Assembly (NCBI GenBank): GCA_030532575.1
Contig: JAUNKV010000013.1
Coordinates: forward strand, 1-63,699
Reading direction: 5' to 3'
Source of the DNA: Propionibacteriaceae bacterium
GTDB lineage: Bacteria > Actinomycetota > Actinomycetes > Propionibacteriales > Propionibacteriaceae
DNA: 63,699 nucleotides
Under the pieces are notes generated by a model. The model saw only the letters and a list, made by a program, of their open reading frames with translations. It was not told the DNA's origin and made no database searches. Positions within the stretch are counted from its first letter, which is position 1. Each line of letters opens with the position of its first letter. The translations under genes were made by a program, and so were the position numbers. Shown one piece after another: positions 7,459-61,700 of the stretch.

Positions 7459-10383
7459 GTGAGCAGGGTCAACACCACCGCAGGTGAGTTCGCTCGCCGT
7501 GGTTTCGAGTCCCCGAGCGCGGCGGCGCGGATGTGGGAGAGCTGGACTGAGCGTCTGGGGGCGGTGCCGCCGGTGCCGCTGACGGCCTTCGATGCGTCCG
7601 CCGACCGGGACCAGGCGCTGGAGACCCTGATTCGGATCGATGAAGCTGAGCCCGAGCTGCTGCGGCAGGTGGTTGCGAATCCCGACTGGCTCATCCGAGT
7701 GCTGACGGTGCTCGGTGGGTCCTCGGTCCTGGCCCGGTTCCTGGCGCGTCACCGCGACGAGATTCGCGCCCTCGAGGCGACTCCCGCGCTGAAGGGAACG
7801 AAACGGCTGGTTGAGCTGCGGCAACGCTCGCAGCGTCCCGGCGGTGGCATCGATGCTGACCTGGTGCGTCGAGGCAACCTGGCGGCGCTGGTGGAGATCG
7901 CGGCCTTCGACCTCACCCACCCCCACCCGGAGCAGGTGGTGGATCAGGTGGCCCAGGAACTCGCCCACCTGGCCGATGCCGTGCTGGAGTGCGCCCTGGA
8001 GGCTGCCCGTGCCGAGGTTCCGGGGGCCGAGCAGGTCAGGCTCGCCGTCGTGGCGATGGGCAAGACCGGTGCGGGGGAACTCAACTACGTCTCCGATGTC
8101 GACGTCATCCACATCGCCGAGCCCGCCGAGGGGGTCGAGATGGATGAGGCGATGCGGGTCGGTGCCCTCGTGGCGGCCGCTCTGGCCCGGATCTGCTCCG
8201 CCCACACCGTCGAGGGCACCATCTGGCCTCTCGATGCGGCCCTGCGACCGGAGGGAAAGGCCGGGCCGTTGGTACGCAGCCTCGCCTCCTGCGAGACCTA
8301 CTACCGCACCTGGGCGAAGAACTGGGAATTCCAGGCCCTCCTCAAGGCACGACCAGCGGCTGGGGACAAGGAGCTGGGGCAGGCCTTCTGCGACATGGTG
8401 GCACCCCTGATCTGGCAGGCCGCCGGGCGTGACGGCTTCCTGGCCGATGCGCGCTCGATGCGGCAGCGGGTGATCTCCCACATCCCGGCCAAGGAGGCGG
8501 GCCGGGAGATCAAGCTCGCGGCAGGCGGGTTGCGGGACACCGAGTTCACCGTGCAGATGTTGCAGCTCGTCCACGGCCGCGGGGATGAACGCCTCCGGGT
8601 GCGAGGCACCTTCGAGGCGCTGCAGGTGTTGACCGATCACGGCTACATCGGGCGTGCCGACGGCGCCGCGATGGTGGAGGCCTATCGCGCCCAGCGGGTG
8701 CTGGAACACCGGGTGCAGCTGCGACGCCTGCGCCGCACCCATCTGGTCCCCGACGACGAGACGGGCTGGGTGCACCTGGCTCGTGGGCTGGGGCGCAGCC
8801 CCGCCGAGGTGCAGGAGACCTGGCGGTCGTCGTTGCGTGCGGTGCAGCGGCTCCAGCAGCGCATCTTCTTCTCGCCGCTGCTGGATGCGGTCAGCGCGAT
8901 CTCCTCGGAGGAACTCCGACTGTCCACCGCTGCGGCCCAGGAGCGTCTGGGGGCGCTCGGCTTCGAGGACCCCAGGGCGGCGCTGGGGCACATCCAGGCC
9001 CTCACCAACGGTGTCTCGCGCACCGTCGAGATTCAGCGTCAACTCATGCCCGCCATGCTCGGTTGGTTTGCCGAGGGGCCGAACCCGGATTTCGGGCTGC
9101 TGGCCTTCCGGCAGCTCTCCGATGCGCTCGGGGCGACCTCGTGGTACCTGAGGGCCTTGCGGGATGAGGGATGGATGGCGCAACGGCTGGCACACATCGC
9201 CTCCTCCAGCCGCCACGTGGTGAACCTGCTGATGCGTGCCCCGGAGATGGTTCAGCTGCTGGCCAGCACCGAGAATCTCGAGCTTCGCTCCCGGGAGCTG
9301 CTGGCCCAGAACATGGGGCGTGCCATCGGGCGGGCTGTCGATCATGCCTCGGCGATCACCTCGGTCAGGGCGTTGCGTCGCTCGGAGCTGTGTCGTATCG
9401 CCCTGGCCGATGTGCTCGGCACCGTTGATGTGGTCACGGTGGGGCGGGCGTTGTCCGATCTGGCCGAGGCGACGCTGGACGCCGGACTGCAGCTGGCGCG
9501 CTTGGAGATCGAGGCACCAGCGGTCGGGGTGATAGGTCTGGGACGCCTCGGTGGGGGAGAGCTCAGCCATTCCTCCGACGCCGATGTCATGTTCGTGATT
9601 CCCGACGATGTCGGCCCTGAAGGGCAGGAGGCTGCCACCCGGCTGGTGCGGCTGGCCTGTGACATCGTCGGCAAGCCCGGCTCGGACCCAGCGCTGGTGG
9701 TGGATGCCGATCTACGCCCGGAGGGCAAGGGCGGTCCGCTGGTACGCAGCGTCTCGTCCTACCTGGCCTACTACGAGCGGTGGGCTGCGGTGTGGGAGGC
9801 GCAGGCCTTGCTTCGGGCTCGTCCCGTGGCGGGGGATTTCGGGTTGGCGCGGGGCGTGCTCGATGGGGTTGCAGGGCTCCGGTACCCGGCAGGAGGGCTG
9901 AGCACTGCTCAGCTGGCGGAGATTCGACGGTTGAAGTCGCGGATGGAGAACGAGCGGATTCCTGCGGGAGTGGACCGGAGTCGACATCTCAAGCTCGGTA
10001 CGGGGGGGCTGTCGGATGTGGAGTGGAGCGTGCAGTTGTTGCAGCTGCAGCACGCCGAAGCACATCCCGTGTTGCGCACCCCGGTCACCTTGGATGCTCT
10101 CGAGGCCGCAGGTGGGCTCGGGCTGTTGCCGCCGGAGCAGAGCACTGCGTTGCGGGAGGCCTGGTTGCACATCAGCCGGGTCCGCAACGCGATCATGCTG
10201 GTGCGGGGCCGGGCCAGCGACACCCTGCCGGTGGACTACCGGGAACTCGCGGCCGTGGCCGGGCTCCTCGGTTACCGGCACGATCAGCATTCCCAGCTGG
10301 TCGATGACACCAGGCGGTTGATGAGGTTGGCGGCGCGTGTCGTCGATGTGGTGTTCTGGGGCTTGGGTGATGAGCAGCGGTGA
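7459..10383 (+). CDS. glnE: bifunctional glutamine synthetase adenylyltransferase/deadenylase
   Basis: A 974-residue protein with the duplicated nucleotidyltransferase architecture of GlnE. The N-terminal deadenylase domain has GKTGAGELNYVSDVDVIHI at about residues 200-220, and the C-terminal adenylylase domain has GRLGGGELSHSSDADVMFV at about 695-712; both carry the G-x-E-L-x-x-x-S-D-x-D metal motif. Each is followed by its PII-uridylyltransferase-type helical domain, with DxxLRPEGKGGPLVRS in both halves. It adds or removes AMP on the tyrosine of GlnA1, tuning ammonium assimilation. The GTG start follows a TAGGCT box at leaderless spacing. Upstream in-frame sequence overlaps the SCP-like gene and is not used. 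Confidence 0.95.
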   Translation: MSRVNTTAGEFARRGFESPSAAARMWESWTERLGAVPPVPLTAFDASADRDQALETLIRIDEAEPELLRQVVANPDWLIRVLTVLGGSSVLARFLARHRDEIRALEATPALKGTKRLVELRQRSQRPGGGIDADLVRRGNLAALVEIAAFDLTHPHPEQVVDQVAQELAHLADAVLECALEAARAEVPGAEQVRLAVVAMGKTGAGELNYVSDVDVIHIAEPAEGVEMDEAMRVGALVAAALARICSAHTVEGTIWPLDAALRPEGKAGPLVRSLASCETYYRTWAKNWEFQALLKARPAAGDKELGQAFCDMVAPLIWQAAGRDGFLADARSMRQRVISHIPAKEAGREIKLAAGGLRDTEFTVQMLQLVHGRGDERLRVRGTFEALQVLTDHGYIGRADGAAMVEAYRAQRVLEHRVQLRRLRRTHLVPDDETGWVHLARGLGRSPAEVQETWRSSLRAVQRLQQRIFFSPLLDAVSAISSEELRLSTAAAQERLGALGFEDPRAALGHIQALTNGVSRTVEIQRQLMPAMLGWFAEGPNPDFGLLAFRQLSDALGATSWYLRALRDEGWMAQRLAHIASSSRHVVNLLMRAPEMVQLLASTENLELRSRELLAQNMGRAIGRAVDHASAITSVRALRRSELCRIALADVLGTVDVVTVGRALSDLAEATLDAGLQLARLEIEAPAVGVIGLGRLGGGELSHSSDADVMFVIPDDVGPEGQEAATRLVRLACDIVGKPGSDPALVVDADLRPEGKGGPLVRSVSSYLAYYERWAAVWEAQALLRARPVAGDFGLARGVLDGVAGLRYPAGGLSTAQLAEIRRLKSRMENERIPAGVDRSRHLKLGTGGLSDVEWSVQLLQLQHAEAHPVLRTPVTLDALEAAGGLGLLPPEQSTALREAWLHISRVRNAIMLVRGRASDTLPVDYRELAAVAGLLGYRHDQHSQLVDDTRRLMRLAARVVDVVFWGLGDEQR

Positions 10384-32834: not shown

Positions 32835-33986
32835 GTGGATTGGTTGTTCTGGTTGATCGTCGCCCTCGTCGGCGCCGCACTCATCATCGCTTCGGTCATC
32901 ATCGTCAAGGGCAACAAACAGCTGCCCCCGCCCCCGGAGGCTGAGGCCATTGAGGCCCCGGAGCCGGGTGAAGCCCCGCAGGAGGCCGAACCGGAGGCCG
33001 GACCTGAGGGCGCCGCCGAGTCGGCGGAGACGGCCCCTCCTGCCCCGCAGCTCGACCAGCCGGAGGCTCCGCGCTCCCGCTTCGCCCGGCTTAGGCGACG
33101 CCTCGCCAGCAGCAACAATGCCCTGGCCCGGGCGCTCGGGGACCTGCTGAGCCGTGACCGGATCGATTCCGAGACCTGGGATGACTTCGAGGCCACCCTC
33201 ATCTCCTCCGACCTGGGGGTCGGCCCCACCACGGAGCTCACCGAGGCGTTGCGCAAGGAGCTCAGCATCGACGGCGTGGGCGACCCCGAGAAGGCCCGCC
33301 AGGTGCTGCGCGCCGAGCTGCTGCGGCTGGTCGATCCCACGATGGACCGTGGCCTCAACCTGGAGGCCGCCGAGGGGGATCCGGCCGTGGTGATGGTGGT
33401 CGGGGTCAACGGCACCGGCAAGACCACGACGGTGGGCAAACTCGCCCGTGTGCTGGTGGCCGAGGACAAGACGGTCCTGCTGGGGGCCGCTGACACCTTC
33501 CGGGCCGCTGCCGCCGAGCAGCTGGCCACGTGGGGGGAGCGCGTCGGGGTCGAGGCCGTGCGTGGCGAGGAGGGGGCCGACCCCGCGTCGGTGGCCTTCG
33601 ACGCCGTCGCGCGCGGCTGCGAGGACGGCGTGGATGTCGTGCTGGTGGACACCGCAGGTCGCCTCCACACCAAGGTGGGGCTGATGGATGAGCTGGGCAA
33701 GGTCAAGCGCGTCATCGAGAAGAAGGCCCCCGTCAGCGAGGTGCTGCTGGTGCTGGATGCCACCACTGGCCAGAACGGCATGACCCAGGCCCGCATCTTC
33801 GCCGAGGTGGTGGATGTCACCGGCATCGTGCTGACCAAGCTCGACGGCTCCGCCAAGGGAGGCATCGTGATCCAGGTGCAGCGTGAGCTGGGCGTCCCCG
33901 TCAAACTGATCGGCCTGGGTGAGGGAGTTGACGACCTGGCTCCCTTCGACCCCGAGGGCTTCGTCGCAGGAATCCTGGGGGAGTGA
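32835..33986 (+). CDS. ftsY: signal recognition particle receptor FtsY
   Basis: A 383-residue GTPase that docks ribosome-SRP complexes at the membrane. An N-terminal transmembrane helix (LFWLIVALVGAALIIASVIIV) is followed by an acidic Pro/Glu/Ala-rich linker (about 30-80), the N domain, and the G domain with the P-loop VVGVNGTGKTTTVGKLA, the DTFRAAAAEQL motif, DTAGRLHTKVGLMDE and TKLDGSAKGG. It starts with GTG placed 6 bases after TAGGAT. In relatives ftsY and ffh are close; here a repeat element and the peptide-kinase-regulator system lie between them. Confidence 0.96.
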   Translation: MDWLFWLIVALVGAALIIASVIIVKGNKQLPPPPEAEAIEAPEPGEAPQEAEPEAGPEGAAESAETAPPAPQLDQPEAPRSRFARLRRRLASSNNALARALGDLLSRDRIDSETWDDFEATLISSDLGVGPTTELTEALRKELSIDGVGDPEKARQVLRAELLRLVDPTMDRGLNLEAAEGDPAVVMVVGVNGTGKTTTVGKLARVLVAEDKTVLLGAADTFRAAAAEQLATWGERVGVEAVRGEEGADPASVAFDAVARGCEDGVDVVLVDTAGRLHTKVGLMDELGKVKRVIEKKAPVSEVLLVLDATTGQNGMTQARIFAEVVDVTGIVLTKLDGSAKGGIVIQVQRELGVPVKLIGLGEGVDDLAPFDPEGFVAGILGE

Positions 33987-34327: not shown

Positions 34328-35014
34328 TCAGCCTCGGGAGCGGGGGGTCATCAGGGCCGGATCGACCAGGCCCAGCTGGATGGCCCGGACCAGGATCTGG
34401 GTGCGGGACTTCAGGCCGAGCTTGTCACCGATGTGGGACAGGTACTGCTTGACCGATCCCTCCGAAATGAACATCTTGGTTGCAATCTGGGCGTTGGTCA
34501 TGCCCTGGCCCAGCCACAGCAGCAGCTCCTTCTCGCGCGGCGCGAGGGAGTCGGTCACGTGCTGATCCGCCGGGCCGCGACGGTTGCCCGAGATCAGGTC
34601 GCTGACCAGCTCACGGCGGACTCCCGGGGCCAGCGGCATCTCCCCGGCCAGGGCCTGCTGGATGCCCGTCAGCAGGGCCGGGCCACCGCAGTCCTTCATC
34701 AAGTACCCGGCCGCGCCAGCGCGCAGCGCCGAGACGATGTACTCTTGGGTGCCAAAAGTGGTCAGTGCGACGATACAGGCGTTCTTGTGCTTGCCGCAGA
34801 TCTCACGGATGGCATCGACCCCGGACATCTCAGGCATCTGGAGATCCATGAGCACCACATCGGGCAACAGCTCGTCGTAGGCCTCCACAGCTTCCCGACC
34901 GTTGCGGGCGTCGGCGACCACGGTGTGGTCCTCGTGACGGGACAGGAACATGCGGTAGGCCTCACGGACCATCGGGTCGTCGTCCACGACCAAAACGCGA
35001 CAAGCTTCACTCAT
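34328..35014 (-). CDS. NarL/FixJ-type response regulator
   Basis: A 228-residue two-component regulator. The receiver domain (1-120) has the acidic pocket VLVVDDDP, the phospho-acceptor Asp57 in VVLMDLQMP, the threonine in IVALTTFG and the lysine in GYLMKD. The C-terminal LuxR-type helix-turn-helix (about 160-225) reads LAPREKELLLWLGQGMTNAQ and IATKMFISEGSVKQYLSHI. It should bind DNA as a dimer when phosphorylated by the histidine kinase encoded divergently at 35359. The start at 35014 is supported by TATTAT exactly 7 bases upstream and TTGACA further up, indicating a leaderless mRNA; a start at 35023 would overlap this box. Confidence 0.92.
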   Translation of the reverse strand: MSEACRVLVVDDDPMVREAYRMFLSRHEDHTVVADARNGREAVEAYDELLPDVVLMDLQMPEMSGVDAIREICGKHKNACIVALTTFGTQEYIVSALRAGAAGYLMKDCGGPALLTGIQQALAGEMPLAPGVRRELVSDLISGNRRGPADQHVTDSLAPREKELLLWLGQGMTNAQIATKMFISEGSVKQYLSHIGDKLGLKSRTQILVRAIQLGLVDPALMTPRSRG

Positions 35015-35021
35015 GAGAGAC

Positions 35022-35053
35022 ATAATAAATGAACGTGTCATCCGGAGTGTCAA
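35022..35053 (-). promoter_or_regulatory. leaderless promoter of the response regulator
   Basis: On the reverse strand TTGACA (35048-35053) is followed by ATTTAT (17-base spacer) and TATTAT (20-base spacer), the latter 7 bases before the ATG at 35014. The strong -35 suggests good basal expression. Confidence 0.55.
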
Positions 35054-35078
35054 TGGTGAACTACGTGTCGGCCCCTGC

Positions 35079-35084
35079 TAGCAT
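35079..35084 (+). promoter_or_regulatory. possible -10 (TAGCAT) for peptide gene
   Basis: The only TAnnnT hexamer in the short divergent gap on this strand; a TGGTGA 19 bases upstream is a poor -35, so activation by the regulator would fit. Confidence 0.3.
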
Positions 35085-35134
35085 CCTGATAGTCTCGAAT
35101 CCGCCCTAGTTTCTCCCTGTTCAGGAGAAGTCCC

Positions 35135-35317
35135 ATGAAGATCCGAATCGCGGCCGCTGCCTTGACGATGGCGGCCGGTCTTTCTGTTGCGGCTGTCCCT
35201 TCGGCTGTCGCGGCTGAGCCCGCGGTGACTTCGGCAGCGGCGTCGGCGTCACAGGCGAAGCCCAGCGGCTTCTGGTGCCTGTTCCGCGTCCCTCGGATGT
35301 GTGGTTGGATTCGCTGA
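35135..35317 (+). CDS. small secreted peptide, candidate signal or bacteriocin-like peptide
   Basis: A 60-residue product. Residues 1-26 form a signal peptide: basic start, a long Ala-rich hydrophobic core and the cleavage motif AVA after a Pro-Ser turn, giving a mature peptide of about 34 residues. Its N-terminal half is Ala/Ser-rich and bland; the C-terminal 17 residues are aromatic and basic (SGFWCLFRVPRMCGWIR) with Cys48 and Cys56, which could close a nine-residue disulfide ring. CAGGAGAAG sits 6 bases before the ATG, a strong ribosome site. The gene lies between a divergent response regulator and, 41 bases downstream on the same strand, the histidine kinase, the classic place for a cognate signal peptide. 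Function is inferred from context; no homolog is recognised. Confidence 0.7.
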   Translation: MKIRIAAAALTMAAGLSVAAVPSAVAAEPAVTSAAASASQAKPSGFWCLFRVPRMCGWIR

Positions 35318-35358
35318 CCAAGATCGGAGCTTTGGGGAACTGAGAGAGGGGGGCTCTC

Positions 35359-37671
35359 GTGGGGGGGAAAACTGGGTTCGGTCCTCGCCGGTCCGTTGAC
35401 CGCTGGGTGGCGATCGGGCGACCCCTGCTGGTGGTGCTGCTGACGGCGCTCTACGTGCTGGGCATCATCGACTGGTGGGGGCACCCGGATCGTCCCGCCA
35501 TCTTCCTACTTGCGCAGCTGGCAGAGCTGGCAGCCTGCGTGGTACTGCTGTGGCGCCCCGTGCGGGGCGCCCTTCTGGCCGTGATCCCGGCCGTCATGAC
35601 CCTGATCCAAGGGTTTTTGGATGCCGATGGCATGTTGACCTGGCTGCTTCCCGCCGTCTTTGCCGCCGTCGGCAGCTTGCGCCAGGTGCTTTTGATTCAA
35701 GGAATCATCATTTCCTATGCCGTGATGCGTGTTCTCGCGCTCGGAGAAGAGTGGGCTTTCCTCTGGTTCTATCCTCTCGGAAGTGTGGCAGGTATCGCTC
35801 TTGGTTATGTCGTAAGGATATTAACTAATAGCCTAAGGCGCGGTGAGATTCAGCTCTCTGTGCTCAGTCAGGACGGCAATGCCATTCGCGGTGCGGAGCG
35901 ATTCCGGCTGGCCGGGGAACTCCGGCTGTTGGTGAGTGACCGGCTGGTGCAATCCTCTCGAATGCTCAAGGACGCCAGCGCTGAGGAGGGGGTTGCTCAG
36001 CTGCGCTCCCGGCTGGAAGGCATCCGGACCAACTGCCTGGATGCCGTAACCCGGGTGCGTGGACTGGTGGGGATGCTGCGTGAGGACCACGTGGCGCATG
36101 GGGCCGACGAGGCGATGGCCGCCCCCGTGGCCTCCCAGGTGCTGGAAGGACTGGCCAAGAAGCTGCGCTCCCAGGGCATCCAGGTGCTGCTCACCATCTC
36201 GCCGGAGGTGGACTCCCGAAACCTGGTCACCCAGCTGACCATCGCCAGGGCAGCCGAGCAGGTCTCGAGCATCGCGGCCGGGCTCCACCCGCACCACGCA
36301 GCCATCCAGCTGACCTGCGAGAAGGGCAGGACGAGGCTGCAGGTCATCGTGACCGACCCGCTGGAGGAGAAGCTGGACGAGAAGCAGAACCTGCTGCGCA
36401 TCGCCCAGCGGGCCGAGGCCCTGGGCGGGAGCGTCAGCATCAATCGGGGTGAGACCGCCTGGATGCTGGAGCTGAGCCTGCCGGACCAGCCGACCCCCAC
36501 CCCGGTCAGCCCCGAGGAGGGAAAACCCCGGGTGCGTCGCTGGGGCAGCATCATCGAGCCCATGGTGGTCTCGCTGGCCACGATGGCGGTGTTCTTCCAC
36601 AGCATCTGGTTCCGCCCCACCTCCTGGGAATACCTCTGGGAGCCCGTGGCCTACCTGGCGGTGCTGGTGCTCTACTGGTATCCCCCGGTGGGTGTGGTGC
36701 CCGCCACCTTGGCCTTCGGTGGGCTGGTGTTCTCGCCCGAGCCGCACCTGCTGCCGCTGGTGCTGGTGGTGCTCATGGGCACCTGGCGCGCGGTGCGGGC
36801 CAAGCAACCCGCCAAGCGGATCGGCCTGGGGGTGGCGGCTCTCGCCACCTTGGTGCTGCTGTGCGCCGGGACGATACTGCGCACCTTCGAGGCGGTGATC
36901 GCCATCGGCTTCCTGAGTTTCGGGATGCTCGGCTTCGCAGCCCTGGGGCACTTCATGACCCTGCGTACGGCACAGCGTGCCAGGAGCAACGAGCTGATGG
37001 AGGAGGCGCGGCGCGCCCGCATTGAGGAGCGCAACCTGCTGGCCCGGGAGCTGCACGACGTGCTGGCCCACCACCTGTCGGTGATCCTGCTGCAGTGCAT
37101 GGCCTATGGCGAGAGCGACGACCCCGCGGAGCTGATGGAGGCCCTGGAGCGCATCCAGAAATCCATCACCAGCGCCGAACAGGAACTGGTGCTGCTGACC
37201 AATGTCATGTCCGAGGAGGAGGTGGTGGAAGCGCCCGCACTGGTGCGCCCCACCTCCATCAGCAGCCAGCTGGAACGCAATCTCCTGGATGCCGGGTTCC
37301 GGCCCCGGATGCAGGTGGCCCCGGCCTGCGACGACCTGCCGCCCATCACCCAGCGCACCCTCACCCGGGTGATGCAGGAGGGGGCCACCAACATCATGCG
37401 CTACGCCCGGCGCGGCACCTCCTGCTCCTTCGACCTGCAGGTCACCCCGGCAATGGTCACCCTCGAGGTCAGCAGCTTGTTGCCCAAGCAGCAGCGCAGC
37501 TCCCAGCTCTCACTGGGTTACGGGTTGACCGGCATCCGGGAACGGGTGGACCTGTCAGGTGGGCTCTTCCACGCTGGGCCCCACAACGGGAATTGGGTGG
37601 TGCGGGTGGAGCTCCCACCCGGCGCCAGGGAAGCCGAGGTCGTCGGCGGACCCAGTCACCACAGCCGCTGA
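35359..37671 (+). CDS. fused double histidine kinase with degenerate first module
   Basis: A 770-residue protein that contains two consecutive copies of the membrane sensor plus HisKA_3/HATPase layout of NarL-type kinases. Module 1 (about 1-375): five or six helices, then a dimerisation helix where FRLAGELRLLVSDRL has Arg189 in place of the phospho-acceptor histidine, and an ATPase-like domain lacking the N-box asparagine. Module 2 (about 390-765): five or six helices, then EERNLLARELHDVLAHHLSV with His566 intact, the N-box QEGATNIMRYA and the G-box GYGLTGIRERV. So only the second half can be phosphorylated, and the first may act as built-in regulatory partner. The GTG start follows GAGAGGGGGG. 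It is 41 bases after the peptide gene and divergent from the regulator. Bases 35690-35840 are markedly AT-richer. Confidence 0.88.
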   Translation: MGGKTGFGPRRSVDRWVAIGRPLLVVLLTALYVLGIIDWWGHPDRPAIFLLAQLAELAACVVLLWRPVRGALLAVIPAVMTLIQGFLDADGMLTWLLPAVFAAVGSLRQVLLIQGIIISYAVMRVLALGEEWAFLWFYPLGSVAGIALGYVVRILTNSLRRGEIQLSVLSQDGNAIRGAERFRLAGELRLLVSDRLVQSSRMLKDASAEEGVAQLRSRLEGIRTNCLDAVTRVRGLVGMLREDHVAHGADEAMAAPVASQVLEGLAKKLRSQGIQVLLTISPEVDSRNLVTQLTIARAAEQVSSIAAGLHPHHAAIQLTCEKGRTRLQVIVTDPLEEKLDEKQNLLRIAQRAEALGGSVSINRGETAWMLELSLPDQPTPTPVSPEEGKPRVRRWGSIIEPMVVSLATMAVFFHSIWFRPTSWEYLWEPVAYLAVLVLYWYPPVGVVPATLAFGGLVFSPEPHLLPLVLVVLMGTWRAVRAKQPAKRIGLGVAALATLVLLCAGTILRTFEAVIAIGFLSFGMLGFAALGHFMTLRTAQRARSNELMEEARRARIEERNLLARELHDVLAHHLSVILLQCMAYGESDDPAELMEALERIQKSITSAEQELVLLTNVMSEEEVVEAPALVRPTSISSQLERNLLDAGFRPRMQVAPACDDLPPITQRTLTRVMQEGATNIMRYARRGTSCSFDLQVTPAMVTLEVSSLLPKQQRSSQLSLGYGLTGIRERVDLSGGLFHAGPHNGNWVVRVELPPGAREAEVVGGPSHHSR

Positions 37672-37748: not shown

Positions 37749-39299
37749 TTGTTCGACACGCTGCAGGACCGCCTGGCCAATGTGTTCAAGGGGCTCCGCG
37801 CCAAGGGGCGCCTCACCTCGGCCGACATCGAAGCCACCACTCGCGAGATCCGGATCGCGCTGCTCGAGGCAGACGTGAACCTCGGTGTGGTCAAGGAATT
37901 CATCACCGCCATCAAGGACCGCTGCCAGGGGCTGGAGGTCAGCAAGGCGCTGAACCCGTCCCAGCAGATCATCAAGATCGTCAACGAGGAGCTCATCGCC
38001 ATCCTCGGCGGTCAGGCCCGTCCCATCCGCTTCGCCAAGAAGCCGCCAACGGTGATCATGTTGGCTGGTCTCCAGGGTGCGGGAAAGACCACCTTGGCTG
38101 GCAAGCTGGCGCAGTGGCTCAAGGAACGTAGGCACAGCCCACTGCTCGTGGCCTGTGACCTGCAGCGCCCCAACGCGGTCAACCAGCTGCAGATCGTGGG
38201 GGAGCGCGCCGGGGTGCACGTGTTCGCCCCCGAACCCGGCAACGGTGTGGGGGACCCGGTGCAGGTGGCCAGGCAGGCCATCGCCCACGCCGAGCGCAAC
38301 CTCTACGACGTCGTGGTGGTGGACACTGCCGGACGCCTCGGCATCGATGAGGTGCTGATGCAGCAGGCCGCCGACATCAAGGCCGCCGTCAGCCCCGACG
38401 AGGTGCTGTTCGTCGTCGATGCGATGATCGGCCAGGATGCGGTCAACACCGCCAAGGCTTTCGAGGAGGGCATCGGCTTCGACGGTGTGGTGCTGACCAA
38501 GCTGGACGGCGACGCCCGAGGTGGTGCCGCCCTGTCCATCGCCAGGGTCATCGGCAGGCCCATCATGTTCGCCTCCAACGGCGAGGGGCTGGGAGACTTC
38601 GACGCCTTCCACCCCGACCGGATGGCCAGCCGCATCCTCGGCATGGGCGATGTGCTCACTCTCATCGAGCAGGCCGAGCGCACCTTCGACGCCGAGGAGT
38701 CCCGCAAGGCCGCCGAGAAACTGAGCGAGGGCAAGGGGCAGTTCGGGCTGCAGGACTTCCTCGGCCAGATGCAGCAGCTGCGCAAGATGGGGCCGCTGTC
38801 CAAGATCATCGGGATGCTGCCCGGGGCCGGGCAGTTCAAGGACGCCATCAACGCCATCGACGAGAAGGAGGTGGACCGCATCGAGGCGATCATCTGCTCC
38901 ATGACCCCGGCAGAGCGTGACGACGTGGCCATCCTCAACGGTTCCCGCCGCTCCCGGATCGCCAAGGGCGCGGGCGTGGAGGTCTCGGATGTCAACAACC
39001 TGGTCAACCGCTTCGTCGAGGCCCGCACGATGATGGAGAAGATGGCAGGTGGCATGATGCCGGGAATGCCAGGCCTGCCGGGAATGCCCGGGGCAGGTCG
39101 CTCCGCCCGCAAGCAGCAGAAGCAGGGCAAACAGAACAAGCGGGGATCGAAGGTCTCCGGCAACCCTGCCAAGCGCAAGCAGCAGGCGGTGGAGCGGGCC
39201 CTCGGCAAACCCGCCCCGGCTCAGCCCCAGGTGAGCAGGCAGGAGATGGAGAACTTCGAGCTGCCCTCCGAGCTGCAGAAGATGCTCAACCAGCAGTGA
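37749..39299 (+). CDS. ffh: signal recognition particle protein Ffh (SRP54)
   Basis: A 516-residue GTPase that binds signal peptides and SRP RNA. The N domain begins FDTLQDRLANVFKGLRAKG; the G domain has LAGLQGAGKTTLAGKLA, DLQRPNAVNQL, DTAGRLGIDE and TKLDGDARGGAAL; the Met-rich M domain (about 300-430) has MQQLRKMGPLSKIIGMLPG and the SRP-RNA motif SRRSRIAKGAG. The C-terminal tail after MMPGMPGLPGMPG is basic and Gln/Lys-rich, common in actinobacteria. The start is a TTG; GAGGGG lies 8 bases upstream and no ATG or GTG fits the family N-terminus. Confidence 0.96.
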   Translation: MFDTLQDRLANVFKGLRAKGRLTSADIEATTREIRIALLEADVNLGVVKEFITAIKDRCQGLEVSKALNPSQQIIKIVNEELIAILGGQARPIRFAKKPPTVIMLAGLQGAGKTTLAGKLAQWLKERRHSPLLVACDLQRPNAVNQLQIVGERAGVHVFAPEPGNGVGDPVQVARQAIAHAERNLYDVVVVDTAGRLGIDEVLMQQAADIKAAVSPDEVLFVVDAMIGQDAVNTAKAFEEGIGFDGVVLTKLDGDARGGAALSIARVIGRPIMFASNGEGLGDFDAFHPDRMASRILGMGDVLTLIEQAERTFDAEESRKAAEKLSEGKGQFGLQDFLGQMQQLRKMGPLSKIIGMLPGAGQFKDAINAIDEKEVDRIEAIICSMTPAERDDVAILNGSRRSRIAKGAGVEVSDVNNLVNRFVEARTMMEKMAGGMMPGMPGLPGMPGAGRSARKQQKQGKQNKRGSKVSGNPAKRKQQAVERALGKPAPAQPQVSRQEMENFELPSELQKMLNQQ

Positions 39300-57297: not shown

Positions 57298-57636
57298 ATG
57301 TCGGAGCTCAGGTTCGACCGTGATGCGGTTGGCGTCAGTGCGAAGCGGGACTGGCATGATGCCGAGGTGATCGGAAGGATTGCGGGATTCGCCAGTTCGG
57401 TGGAGACGGCAGGCACGGCCACTGCCGTGGGGGAGCACCTCGATGCCGGGGCGGTCGCGCTGGAGGCCATGACTGCGCGCTGTGTCAGTGTGGTGCAGAT
57501 GATCGTGGCCGAGTGTTCGGATGCGGCGGCGGTGCTGGGCTCCGGGCAGGAGTCGGCCATCGCGGACATGGACACCACGGAGAGCACCACCACCGCGATG
57601 TATGACCAGATCTTTGCGCGGATGGAGGGCAAGTGA
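57298..57636 (+). CDS. small helical protein, WXG100/ESX-like
   Basis: A 112-residue, almost wholly helical protein without signal peptide. Two long amphipathic helices are visible: EVIGRIAGFASSVETAGTAT and ALEAMTARCVSVVQMIVAEC, separated by a loop, with a further helix at ESAIADMDTTESTTTAMYDQ. A Trp lies at DWHDAEV near residue 19. Length, lack of leader and arrangement resemble WXG100/ESAT-6-like proteins of type VII secretion, though a clear W-x-G is not present. Strong GAAGGAGG upstream. Its stop overlaps the start of the 931-residue gene by 4 bases, so the two are coupled, as ESX partners and their substrates often are. No EccC/EssC ATPase is in the window. Confidence 0.6.
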   Translation: MSELRFDRDAVGVSAKRDWHDAEVIGRIAGFASSVETAGTATAVGEHLDAGAVALEAMTARCVSVVQMIVAECSDAAAVLGSGQESAIADMDTTESTTTAMYDQIFARMEGK

Positions 57637-60428
57637 CCAGCGCAGTTGATGCGATGCCGCCGCCGGATGCGGTGAACAAGATGCGAGCGACTGAGGTTGC
57701 ACAAGCCTTGGAGGTGGTGGCGAGTCGGCTGTCGAGCTGCCAGGTGGCGGGGTTCTCCGGGCAGGTGCCGGGGTGGCTCGGTGAGGCTGCCGATGCGTAC
57801 ACGGAGTCGATCCGGGACCTGGGGAAGAAGGTGCGCTCCGTGGCGACCTCGGTGGGGGTGTGCGGGAGGAAACTGTACAACTGGGCCTCGGCGGTGGGGA
57901 ATGCGGTGGACTCCCGGATACCGAATCTGCACGCTCGCTGGGATGACCTGCAGTGGCAGTATGCGTGGAAGGTGAGGAGGGCCACGGAGGCACTGTCGGA
58001 CCCGAGGGACCCGATGACCCAGGAGGACTTCGACGCGAAGGTGCGGGAGTTCGCAGCGTATCGGGATGCAGAGCAGGAAGCTGTGCTGTGGGATTACAAG
58101 AACCTGATGACCGGGCTGGACGAACTGGCCGCGCAGGTGGCGCGGGAGATGTCGGCGGTGCTGGACGTCGAGATCGGGGTGGAGGGCTGGACTTCTGGCG
58201 GGGGTGGCCGTACTGAGCTGGCGACGTTGTTGTTCAACAACCTTCCGCTGGTGGACACGGTGGCGGAGTATGAGCTGGCCCAGCAGGAGGCCAAGGAGGC
58301 AGCTGAGTACCTCAACGGGGAGGAGCCGCTGAATGCTGAGCGGGTGCTCGAGTTCCATGAGAAGTACGGGGACCGGTTCGATGATCCATTCTTCCTGGCC
58401 GGGTTGAACGAGCAGGTGTCTCCGCAGCAGGTGCTGCAGTTCCTGTCTGACATCGATCACATGCGGTCTGGCCCTGTGGACGTGTTCGGGGCAGAGGCCA
58501 CGACCAACCGGTATCGGGATGTCGTGGAGGAGCTGGCTGCCGGATTTGGTCGCGGGTTCGTGTTGTCCGCGGGTGGGTTCGATGCTGGTATGGACTCGAA
58601 GCGGTGGGAGGCATTCCAGACAGCACGTGACGGTTTCCGAACTTCGGGCGGGCTGTCAATGACTGAGCTGTGGCAGCGGCGTGCTGAGGAGTGGAAGGCC
58701 GCAGGAAACGAGCGGCTGGACCTGGAGCGCTTCAATGTGGCCCATTCAGGACCAACAACCACTATATATCAGCAGGACCAAGGGTATGAATACTTCGGAT
58801 TCATGCTGGCTGCGGCTGCGAAGCGCTACCCGGGGCTGGCGCTGGGTGCGGACTACTTCGAAGCTCCAGAGGGTGGGCGCTCGGTCGCTGAGGACTTGCT
58901 CATCTTCGAGAAGAAGTACTATGCGGAGCTGGAGAAGGCCCAGGACAGCAGCGCGACGGTGACACCTGATCGACTGATGCCGGAGATCATGGTGGATGGG
59001 AAGCCAGTGAGAGCTGGGTTCGTGGAGGGGATGCTCGCGCTGATGGATACCCCGGAGCTTCCCGAGTACGGCCCGGGTCGGGTACCCAGGACTTGGTCAG
59101 GGTTCAAGGAGGCTGACGCGGAGCGCTTCGATGCGGTGCAGCGGTTCATGACCGGTGGGGTGCCTGAGGAGTTGGACGTGGACGGCATCAAGGGAGGCCC
59201 GATGACGATGACCCGCTATCTCACCGGGAATCGATGGAGCCCTTACCATATTCCACCGGATGGTGGGGATGCTCTGGGAAGACTGCTGGCCGAGTTGTCT
59301 TTGCCGCATTCTCGGCCCGATGCGCCTGGAGAGTCGGAAGCTTATCAGCGATGGTTGGATAGGGAATGGCGAAGTGCCACGGTGGCTGCTGAGTTTTTTG
59401 AAGGTTACCAGGACGGCTTGGAGCGCTCTGGCGTCCAGGGGGCGAGTGGGCGACATCCCTTCGGTGATGACAACAAGGTGCTCAGGAACTGGGCAGGTCG
59501 GATTATTTCCCCATATCTTGGGGGGCTCGCCGATGGAACAGCGATCGACATTGACGAGAGGGAAGGAGTGCATGTCGGCGAGGACGAATATCGTGGAGTC
59601 ACATTGAGCTTCAGTACTGATTTCTTGGCGAGGCTGCGGCGGGAGCACGGAGTGTTCAAGGACTTGGCTCTTGATGTTCGCGTGGACGTCAATGGTACGC
59701 CCACAGATCCTTATGATGATGTGAGTCCCCATCCCAATCCGCCAGCTATGGAGGTGCTGCTCGCTGAGGCGATGCGACAGTACGAAGACGATTTGGATTG
59801 GGCTTTTTCGGCCGAGGGGAACCGGAAGGCCAAGGTGGAGTCAGTCGTTGTCGACTGGGCCTCGAAGCTCGACCTTTTGGATGCATCTGCAACGGATGCA
59901 GCTGTGGCTCAAGGAGAGGCCAAGGATGAGGTGAACCGAAGGATCAAATCCTTGGCCAGTGCTCTTCTGGGTGGGGTCAAGATCGGTAAGGGGGTGACCT
60001 CGGACAAAGGGATGCAAGAGAAGGTGGATAAAGCCTTCAATGCCATCTCGGGAGGGGTTATTGAGGGGATCTTTGGTGAAGGAGCGGCGGCTCGAGAAAT
60101 TGCCGCGGGGAAGCAGAGGCACAACTCCCTTGAGCAAACCATGAAACAGCTCCTGATGGCGAAGTTCTATGAGGGAGCTGTGCTGGATGCGGGAAATGAG
60201 AATGACTTCAAGGCGTATGCCTTGGCGAAAGGGTATGGCCCAGAGGAAGTGCCCGAATCCTACTTTGACTTGATTCGAAGGGGTGATAAGCGCGAAGAGA
60301 AGTTGTTGGGTCTTTTTCTTGGGTATGTCAAGGATAGGGAGGGGATTGGTGAAGACTACAAGCTTCTACTGGCTGAAGTGGACAAGTCGCTGAATCTGAG
60401 TCAGCAGGAGGGGGATGAGGAAGAATGA
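57633..60428 (+). CDS. large type VII-like substrate or effector of unknown activity
   Basis: A 931-residue protein without signal peptide or membrane helix. The N-terminal 100 residues are helical and carry a W-x-G motif (VPGWLGEAADAYTESIRDLG), as in WXG100/LXG proteins exported by type VII systems. The rest is alpha-rich with repeated acidic segments, for example LFNNLPLVDTVAEYELAQQE, KKYYAELEKAQDSSATV and WAGRIISPYLGGLADGTAID. No nuclease, deaminase or NADase motif is recognised. The last third (from about 59,330) is AT-richer than neighbours, suggesting acquisition. It is coupled to the small helical protein and followed by four related envelope proteins. It may be a polymorphic toxin or a DUF6571-like structural protein; I cannot decide. 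Confidence 0.65.
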   Translation: MTSAVDAMPPPDAVNKMRATEVAQALEVVASRLSSCQVAGFSGQVPGWLGEAADAYTESIRDLGKKVRSVATSVGVCGRKLYNWASAVGNAVDSRIPNLHARWDDLQWQYAWKVRRATEALSDPRDPMTQEDFDAKVREFAAYRDAEQEAVLWDYKNLMTGLDELAAQVAREMSAVLDVEIGVEGWTSGGGGRTELATLLFNNLPLVDTVAEYELAQQEAKEAAEYLNGEEPLNAERVLEFHEKYGDRFDDPFFLAGLNEQVSPQQVLQFLSDIDHMRSGPVDVFGAEATTNRYRDVVEELAAGFGRGFVLSAGGFDAGMDSKRWEAFQTARDGFRTSGGLSMTELWQRRAEEWKAAGNERLDLERFNVAHSGPTTTIYQQDQGYEYFGFMLAAAAKRYPGLALGADYFEAPEGGRSVAEDLLIFEKKYYAELEKAQDSSATVTPDRLMPEIMVDGKPVRAGFVEGMLALMDTPELPEYGPGRVPRTWSGFKEADAERFDAVQRFMTGGVPEELDVDGIKGGPMTMTRYLTGNRWSPYHIPPDGGDALGRLLAELSLPHSRPDAPGESEAYQRWLDREWRSATVAAEFFEGYQDGLERSGVQGASGRHPFGDDNKVLRNWAGRIISPYLGGLADGTAIDIDEREGVHVGEDEYRGVTLSFSTDFLARLRREHGVFKDLALDVRVDVNGTPTDPYDDVSPHPNPPAMEVLLAEAMRQYEDDLDWAFSAEGNRKAKVESVVVDWASKLDLLDASATDAAVAQGEAKDEVNRRIKSLASALLGGVKIGKGVTSDKGMQEKVDKAFNAISGGVIEGIFGEGAAAREIAAGKQRHNSLEQTMKQLLMAKFYEGAVLDAGNENDFKAYALAKGYGPEEVPESYFDLIRRGDKREEKLLGLFLGYVKDREGIGEDYKLLLAEVDKSLNLSQQEGDEEE

Positions 60429-61083
60429 TCCAGGTGGCTGTTTCTGTGCTGCTGGAAGGCGGTGCGTCCTTGTGTTGACTGGAGTGTGGAGGCGTAGGCT
60501 CCTACTGCTTCTGTTCGTCGTGTTGCCGGTGTTCTTGGCGATTCCTTACGAGCAGCCCCTTCCGCGCCCGCTGCTCTGGGCTGACTGGAAGTTCAAGCGG
60601 CACAAGTTTGGTGAGGCGGTCGACAGGGTGGCGTTGAATGTTCCCGTAGGATATACGTTTGGCGTGCATTCCCGTGAGTTGGATGAAGAATTTCCGTTCT
60701 ATATTGTGCAGCGTGAAGGGGTGAGAGGGTCAGTGTATCACATTACGCCGTATGCTGAATTCTTGGGGAATGGTGCCAGGACCTATGAAGATTTCTGTGA
60801 GGAAAAATACTGGGAGAGTGTCGGGGCTCGTTGGCGGGTGGTGTCTTTTGAGGATCGGTTCATCGCTGGGGTGCGTGCCTGTGGGTTCAGCGTGCCGCAG
60901 GTTGACAGCAGCGATGCAATGTTCCAGCAGTGGGGGGTGTGCCGGGAGGATGGTTGCTGGGAGATCGCGGTTTACGGCGACAGTGGGGAAAACTGGCTGT
61001 CGGGAGAGCTGCTGGAGGTCTTGGATACCATTCGCTTTGTGCCATTGCCAAGTCCGGAGCCTGATTTCGTCTTGAGGAGGTGA
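60415..61083 (+). CDS. membrane-anchored member of the four-protein CRxDxCW family (paralog 1)
   Basis: A 222-residue protein. After a short basic start it has a hydrophobic segment (RRLLLLLFVVLPVFLAIP) that is a signal anchor, not a lipobox. The outer domain has the family landmarks: YEDFCEEKYW, ACGFSVPQ, and near the end VCREDGCWEIAVYG followed by LSGELLEVLDTIRFVPLP. It overlaps the 931-residue gene by 14 bases; alternative GTG starts lie at 60472 and 60484. With paralogs 2-4 it forms a tandem family sharing four cysteines. Function unknown; immunity or secretion-partner roles are inferred from position. Codon use is AT-richer than the housekeeping genes. Confidence 0.7.
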   Translation: MRKNDPGGCFCAAGRRCVLVLTGVWRRRLLLLLFVVLPVFLAIPYEQPLPRPLLWADWKFKRHKFGEAVDRVALNVPVGYTFGVHSRELDEEFPFYIVQREGVRGSVYHITPYAEFLGNGARTYEDFCEEKYWESVGARWRVVSFEDRFIAGVRACGFSVPQVDSSDAMFQQWGVCREDGCWEIAVYGDSGENWLSGELLEVLDTIRFVPLPSPEPDFVLRR

Positions 61084-61085
61084 AG

Positions 61086-61700
61086 ATGGGTTCTCCTGTG
61101 GGTTTCTTGGTTGGAGTAGTTGCCTTCCTGGGGCTGCTGGTTGGTTGCAGTGCCCCGCCGTCGCCGCCAGTTGATTTCGATGATGTGGTTGTCTTCGAGC
61201 CGCCGCCTGGCTATGAGACCCGTAGGGTTGATGGGGGCGGTGCGGAGCCGGACTGGCAGGTGGTTCAGTGGTTTCCGCCCAAGGAGAGAGGGCAGGGTGG
61301 CGAAGATGGTTCCGGGATGTTGATCCGCTCCGGCATGGAGGATCGCGACCCGCGAAAACCGTCGGTGGCGACCTTCGAGCAGTACTGCGCGGGTTTGTTG
61401 GCCGCGGTGGAGGCGGAGTCTGGAGTGTCCAAGGCCGAGGTGCTGAGGGATCGTCAAATCGATGACTCGACCGCCTGCGGAGTTGCCTGGCAGCAGGGTG
61501 AGGGAGATCAGCGGCAGGTGATGATGCGATGGGACCTGTGTCGTCGTGATGGCTGCTGGAGTTTTCAGGTCCACGGAGCGAGGGGGAGTGATGTCGTCAG
61601 TGGTAGTTTCCTGTCCTTTCTTCAGACGGTTCGGTTTGTACCGAAGCCGCCCCAGAGGTCAGACCTGGTGTTCCCCGAGCCCACCGCGACGAACAGCTAG
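61086..61700 (+). CDS. lipoprotein, CRxDxCW family paralog 2
   Basis: A 204-residue lipoprotein. Signal peptide VGFLVGVVAFLGLLVGC places the lipobox cysteine at residue 20. The mature domain has VVVFEPPPGYETR, the cysteines of FEQYCAGL and TACGVAWQQ, and LCRRDGCWSFQVHG, ending VSGSFLSFLQTVRFVPKP. GAGGAGG lies upstream of the ATG at 61086; the GTG at 61080 would be too close to it. It begins 2 bases after paralog 1. Confidence 0.75.
   Translation: MGSPVGFLVGVVAFLGLLVGCSAPPSPPVDFDDVVVFEPPPGYETRRVDGGGAEPDWQVVQWFPPKERGQGGEDGSGMLIRSGMEDRDPRKPSVATFEQYCAGLLAAVEAESGVSKAEVLRDRQIDDSTACGVAWQQGEGDQRQVMMRWDLCRRDGCWSFQVHGARGSDVVSGSFLSFLQTVRFVPKPPQRSDLVFPEPTATNS

Follow-up and report, generated by a model that had tools for sequence, protein, structure and literature searches.

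In the agr system, a small ring peptide is sensed by a polytopic kinase; the ring is a thiolactone made by AgrB, the kinase is of the HPK10 type, and the regulator is of the LytTR type. RamR and AmfR of Streptomyces have, to our knowledge, no adjacent kinase or signal peptide, and for the kinase DesK we know of neither a peptide partner nor a duplicated pseudokinase half. In the ComQXPA system of Bacillus subtilis (ComX-ComP-ComA), ComP and ComA are placed in the NarL family by passages of PMC8895600. A census of ComQXPA stresses the variability of ComX, describes all four genes on one strand, and found no such system outside the Firmicutes (PMC4008528). SapB and AmfS are named as extracellular peptide signals in Actinobacteria in another abstract (PMC13380574). 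Here, we describe a locus in a 63,699-nt stretch of Propionibacteriaceae DNA (contig JAUNKV010000013.1; the whole stretch is called the window, and its coordinates are used throughout), from a genome that we infer to belong to the genus Arachnia. The locus holds a gene for an undescribed small secreted peptide together with genes for a histidine kinase and a response regulator (RR), and it appears to be a new bacterial signaling system. Judged from sequence, the product is probably an autoinducing disulfide peptide that is sensed by the neighboring kinase, which would make the locus a peptide-pheromone two-component system.

An earlier note on this DNA had proposed a trio made up of a NarL-type RR, a divergent gene for a 60-residue secreted peptide, and a 770-residue kinase, with 120 bases between the RR and peptide starts. 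Open reading frames (ORFs) and Pfam matches bear out the trio, and the ORF coordinates give the same gap. The NarL/FixJ-type RR (34328..35014, minus strand; 228 amino acids [aa]) has a receiver and a GerE helix-turn-helix domain, the 60-aa peptide is encoded at 35135..35317 on the plus strand, and the membrane histidine kinase (35359..37671, plus strand) starts with GTG 41 bases after the end of the peptide gene. The loop of a short GAGAG/CTCTC inverted repeat (35342-35361) holds a G-rich, Shine-Dalgarno-like run ahead of this GTG, and a similar stretch is present in L037 (L numbers denote fetched homolog loci and G numbers genomes). The flanking genes, which we take from sequence and position to be ftsY (32835..33986, plus strand) and ffh (37749..39299, plus strand), are outside the system; the former marks its insertion site. 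Between them, the window contains only the RR, peptide, and kinase genes.

As in ComX-ComP-ComA, the peptide gene directly precedes a multi-pass HisKA_3 kinase, a NarL/GerE-type RR is adjacent, and the peptide is variable. In contrast to ComQXPA, the RR of the window is divergent, the peptide combines a Sec-type signal with a Cys pair, the kinase is duplicated, and there is no ComQ prenyltransferase gene between ftsY and ffh, the stretch in which it was sought. In its probable mode of action, the system resembles ComX-ComP-ComA, but it falls outside that family, because the adjacent ComQ gene and the one-strand order are both lacking. With AgrD-AgrC, it shares the pairing of a small, here putative, ring peptide with a polytopic kinase; unlike in agr, however, the kinase is of the HisKA_3 type, the RR has a GerE rather than a LytTR domain, and no AgrB protease gene is adjacent, the peptide gene being the only one between RR and kinase. 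Four relatives (L049, L054, L058, and L061) resemble the RamR/AmfR clusters of Streptomyces in that the NarL-type RR stands beside a LanKC gene, precursors, and an ABC transporter. They differ in that the RR is faced by a kinase and a peptide that looks unmodified, and the window copy is without a lanthipeptide synthetase. DesK is similar as a HisKA_3-type kinase and as the best PDB match. What the locus does have in common with peptide-pheromone two-component systems in general is a small secreted peptide that is linked to a kinase and an RR across species. Among the matches listed from the open-access literature, we recognized no report of this system; most subscription papers and all preprints lay outside that search.

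The 60-aa ORF is a conserved, selected gene tied to two-component genes across the family. A blind scan with a strict rule (export signal plus C-terminal Cys pair) over 650,345 bases of kinase and RR homolog loci returned 22 candidates, all of which were divergent from the RR and started 113 to 235 bases from its start. The window peptide and those of L040-L043, L050, and L057 were missed by this rule and found by a relaxed look, which placed a peptide in the same divergent position at 29 of 42 close RR loci. L057 counts toward the 29, but it was excluded from the peptide alignments because its frame continues beyond the Cys pair and contains additional Cys residues. At 28 of these 29 loci, a kinase was located downstream, detected by tblastn in 27 and by eye in L182, where the kinase frame is cut by the contig end; at L185, the contig itself ends. 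Furthermore, the ratio of nonsynonymous to synonymous substitution rates (dN/dS) of the peptide was 0.21 to 0.25 among the window, L037, and L038, with values of 0.06 to 0.12 for the RR, 0.28 to 0.31 for the kinase, and 0.08 to 0.09 for ffh. Thus, the 60-codon ORF is under purifying selection and its counterparts are not consistently lacking beside homologous kinases and RRs, so that neither of the two findings named in the earlier note as refuting its proposal was obtained.

The same linkage was found with a profile of 30 peptides (A2), which was run over 195 family genomes. Of the 38 matches obtained at E < 1e-3, 33 extend as far as the second Cys; the other 5, in frames of 183 to 516 residues, stop earlier. 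Twenty-five of the 33 were rows of the profile itself and 8 were new. All eight new peptides adjoin an RR homolog only 33 to 40% identical to the RR of the window and have a kinase downstream, recognized as HisKA_3 by Pfam in L246 and L252 and by tblastn in the other six. Six of these loci are divergent, and two (L247 and L248) have the co-directional order peptide-kinase-RR. Therefore, the peptide keeps a two-component partner even where this partner is distantly related.

The system is found mainly within the family. Of 198 family genomes, 29 gave a kinase homolog at E <= 1e-40, and of 391 genomes of the order, 34 gave an RR homolog at E <= 1e-60 (33 in the same family and one in another; the genome of the window is included in both counts). 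L180, from that other family of the same order (G400), is the sole out-of-family case and was reached via the RR search. At the class level, the RR search over 394 genomes returned the window's own genome alone at E <= 1e-58. A further peptide profile (A3), run over 384 class genomes, matched in 81 of them at E <= 1e-3; among the matches listed, four reach the second Cys, namely, the window's own and those in G066 (79-residue frame), G579 (1071 residues), and G421 (291 residues). Six match loci, including those of G579 and G066, were opened, and an RR (42.5% identity) and a kinase (27%) were beside the peptide only in L258, which is from G066 and the same family; there was no case outside the family among the six. 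A search of plasmid DNA yielded short kinase matches only.

As a control, we scanned 80 named kinase loci and 6 loci of kinase paralogs from the window's own genome (1.40 Mb). Four peptide candidates were obtained, two of them ahead of a kinase and both of these from Arachnia (L065 and L066), and two elsewhere (L079 and L132); the third named Arachnia locus, L124, gave no candidate. L066 is from [Pseudopropionibacterium] massiliense, which according to NCBI belongs to Arachnia, Propionibacteriaceae. Its peptide gene (8307-8468, the same place as L254 8372-8533) is part of a further peptide-kinase pair, with ketoacyl synthase and ornithine cyclodeaminase-type genes and, by eye, an apparent major facilitator superfamily transporter as neighbors. 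In A. propionica (L065), the same pair follows an ornithine cyclodeaminase-type gene.

The peptide begins with a putative Sec signal peptide (residues 1-26; 35135..35212, plus strand), which we judged to be an export signal from its hydropathy and its A-x-A end (A-V-A at residues 24-26). We read the C-terminal tail (residues 45-60; 35267..35314, plus strand) as the signal; it is GFWCLFRVPRMCGWIR in the window and, for comparison, FRDAICWWLPIACA in L056. Cys48 (35276-35278) and Cys56 (35300-35302), both encoded on the plus strand, are predicted to form a disulfide. Both Cys residues are present in all 38 aligned peptides; the scan had required such a pair of the rows that it found, whereas the eight rows found by the profile were not selected for it. 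The two are 4 to 11 residues apart (6 in 15 peptides, 8 in 8, and 7 in 6), and in 37 of 38 peptides only 0 to 4 residues follow the second one. Within the ring, Pro occurs in 25 of 38 peptides, an aromatic residue or His in 37, and an acidic residue in 2. The tails are hydrophobic and aromatic, with a net charge of 0 to +4. At E <= 0.01, NCBIfam matched none of the 38 peptides and Pfam matched one, with a weak pilin match; the window peptide was assigned to no family. We also considered whether the peptide is a class III lanthipeptide precursor; this was ruled out, since it carries an export signal and lacks an LxLQ leader.

Pfam recognized the HisKA_3 domain of the kinase (1.4e-10), with a weak match to HATPase (0.17). 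The description of a fused double kinase in the earlier note holds insofar as the two halves are homologous: hhalign, which compared these two profiles only and whose E-values are nominal, gave a probability of 99.3 for the kinase parts and 99.7 with the membrane parts included. It does not hold for the activity of the N-terminal half, in which Arg189 (35923-35925, plus strand) aligns to His566 (37054-37056, plus strand) of the C-terminal half and is invariant in 14 of 14 sequences. Judging from this alignment, the kinase is an internal duplication, and its first half, a predicted pseudokinase, has lost the phospho-histidine. On the plus strand, the order is membrane domain 1 (residues 19-152, five hydropathy segments; 35413..35814), the pseudokinase half (residues 166-395; 35854..36543), membrane domain 2 (about residues 398-545; 36550..36993), and the catalytic half with the HisKA_3 dimerization and ATPase domains (37000..37623). 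The nearest solved kinase is DesK, which matches residues 666-753 with E-values of up to 3.9e-12. The duplication belongs to the system in the window, but it is not essential to it; in relatives, the peptide is found beside single-module kinases of about 375 to 490 aa or beside tandem kinases, which makes the fused pseudokinase look like a derived state. Identity to the window in L012-L015 is 38 to 40% for the kinase, 82 to 85% for the RR, and about 83% for ffh of the same genomes.

A comparison of peptide tails with kinase sequences, suggested in the earlier note, was positive for both membrane domains. Using 14 Arachnia pairs, tail distances from which the effect of catalytic-domain distance had been removed, and 2000 within-clade permutations, we obtained r values of 0.42 for the tail and membrane domain 1 and 0.43 for the tail and membrane domain 2, which were reached in 12 and 3 of the permutations (uncorrected counts), respectively. 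For the pseudokinase parts, the corresponding values were -0.09 and 0.08, and for the signal peptide, which served as a control from within the peptide gene, they were -0.28 and -0.14 with the membrane domains. With other tail limits, which had no signal control, the values were 0.46 for membrane domain 1, 0.33 for membrane domain 2, 0.26 for the pseudo-ATPase part (16 of 2000 permutations), and -0.05 for the pseudo-dimerization part. At the level of substitution rates, the dN/dS of the membrane domains was 0.28 to 0.42, compared with 0.10 to 0.25 for the catalytic half. These data are suggestive of a joint diversification of the tail and both membrane domains of the kinase.

The RR matched Response_reg (6e-27) and GerE (2.5e-16) in Pfam. 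We place its start at the ATG at 35014 and not at the upstream TTG at 35053 (241 aa), because homologs align with the 228-aa form from its first residue onward. RR relatives that adjoin a peptide and a kinase are 50 to 95% identical to it. Aligned with relatives, the region shared by the divergent RR and peptide genes (35015..35134) contains a 22-base block (35048..35069, plus strand) whose sequence is preserved across the three nearest species and which may be an operator. With up to three mismatches allowed, the block occurs in a single copy in each of three genomes. A scan for promoters and terminators returned nothing convincing; it gave one promoter-like site on the plus strand (34997-35026) and one terminator-like stem, located inside the peptide gene.

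Taken together, these features suggest the following mechanism. The 60-aa prepeptide would be exported by Sec, its signal removed, and the tail, closed by the Cys48-Cys56 disulfide, released. The tail would then bind to the membrane domains of the kinase, a step that the co-divergence supports. The C-terminal half would autophosphorylate on His566, with the N-terminal His-less copy possibly acting as an allosteric or dimerization module. Finally, the phosphorylated RR would bind to the shared promoter and raise transcription of the peptide and kinase genes, creating positive feedback, and of output genes; this last step is suggested by the RR family and the divergent arrangement.

In four relatives, a likely output operon lies next to the RR and runs in the same direction; it would provide a class III lanthipeptide synthetase, a precursor array, and an ABC transporter. 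These clusters (L049 1824-5404, L054 401-4818, L058 12153-16067, and L061 2742-6210) each contain one LanKC gene of the RamC type (RamC_N 2e-63 to 1.5e-59), 3 to 6 short divergent precursors that have an LxLQ leader and a Ser/Cys core, and an ABC ATPase gene. Those of L054, L058, and L061 also contain an FtsX-like permease. Permeases of about 470 aa that belong to this one family are found repeatedly near the RR family, with or without a peptide, in L051, L052, L054, L058, L060, L061, and L064. In L044 (11224-12147), L046 (5305-6150), and L048 (11557-12474), an ABC ATPase gene lies between ftsY and the RR, on the far side of the latter; it may equally reflect output, immunity, or chance. In another Arachnia clade, the stretch between the kinase and ffh holds genes for NAD(P) transhydrogenase subunits, in L044 (4873-7831, assigned by Pfam) and in the same place in L045-L047 (grouped by BLAST).

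The chromosomal site was surveyed at 30 of the 39 ftsY loci of the genus, each up to 1.5 kb downstream. The next gene was ffh in 11 (at 64 to 408 bases) and the RR in 10; the contig ended in 3, and neither gene followed in 6, although two of the latter (G014 and G018) have the module at a greater distance. Either the module is an accessory insert or it has been lost repeatedly. Elsewhere in the window, three co-directional ORFs (931, 222, and 206 aa) at 57633-61700 have no Pfam match at E <= 0.01, and the G+C content of this stretch is lower, down to 0.58 to 0.60.

Several observations weigh against a peptide pheromone that is sensed by the kinase. At 13 of the 42 close RR loci, there is no peptide, and 8 of these 13 cluster on the RR tree (in which one outgroup row is a fragment and the root is arbitrary); therefore, the RR family can work without the peptide. 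Four of the eight new A2 matches are from one genus. Constraint on the peptide is strongest in the signal (dN 0.04 to 0.16) and looser, on few sites, in the linker (0.37 to 0.61) and the tail (0.13 to 0.33). The pseudokinase half also evolves fast (dN/dS 0.23 to 0.43), and thus speed alone does not single out the latter. The co-divergence is based on 14 related sequences and eight comparisons, with permutation counts that are uncorrected. Moreover, the output genes are not adjacent to the system in the window genome, in which there is no RamC_N match and, within the window, no neighboring lanthipeptide synthetase. A pattern search with up to three mismatches revealed no second copy of the 22-base block in the own genome or in two relatives, and with one site per genome, the regulon of the RR could not be read off.

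Some of these data could also be explained if the peptide were an effector, that is, a small cyclic antimicrobial or bacteriocin controlled or sensed by the kinase-RR pair. Self-inducing lantibiotics such as nisin provide a model, and small disulfide antimicrobial peptides resemble the hydrophobic, aromatic, Cys-paired tails described above, with their net charge of 0 to +4. The apparent joint diversification of tail and membrane domains is compatible with this explanation as well, and the ABC ATPase encoded beside the RR in the Arachnia relatives L044, L046, and L048 could be an immunity pump, which also counts against a pure signal. However, the window has no immunity or export gene adjacent to the system between ftsY and ffh, 9 of the 38 tails are without net charge, and where neighboring genes are likely to make a peptide product, this comes from a separate class III lanthipeptide array. 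We consider an effector unlikely.

The peptide might instead remain in the envelope and tune the kinase of the cell that made it, with no cell-cell signaling; its Cys pair could, for instance, serve to sense thiols or envelope stress. The kinase gene follows the peptide gene at 28 of the 29 close RR loci that have a peptide, the Cys pair is kept in all 38 aligned peptides while the rest varies, and the nearest solved kinase, DesK, is a membrane sensor. A pure redox or stress sensor, however, should not need a variable tail, the tail appears to diverge together with the membrane domains of the kinase, and the A-x-A type of signal-peptide end suggests release. Such an accessory regulator seems quite improbable to us. 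That the small ORF is a chance frame or functionless leader in an ordinary two-component system, as its shortness and the near absence of NCBIfam and Pfam matches might imply, is hardly credible and was rejected, given the 22 of 22 blind-scan candidates and 8 of 8 new profile matches at such loci, the dN/dS values, and the two Cys residues kept in 38 of 38 peptides.

The peptide-pheromone reading can be extended beyond the window. With little better than even confidence, we propose a family of Sec-exported disulfide-ring pheromones, mainly in Propionibacteriaceae, each with its own HisKA_3 kinase and NarL-type RR, which in some species would activate clusters for class III lanthipeptides. The Arachnia kinase would have undergone a duplication, after which its first half became a pseudokinase dedicated to sensing, and the module would come and go at a fixed site between ftsY and ffh.

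Cell-cell signaling in actinobacteria is usually described via gamma-butyrolactones. A 2026 review names these compounds for Streptomyces, in passages that mention neither Propionibacterium nor Cutibacterium (PMC13220807). A linked, diversifying peptide-kinase-RR module in Propionibacteriaceae provides a specific candidate ligand and receptor that can be tested. The kinase, with one of its two duplicated halves dead, offers a clean case for studying how a pseudokinase can sense. Where the module faces a lanthipeptide operon, it may allow silent clusters to be activated by adding a short synthetic peptide.

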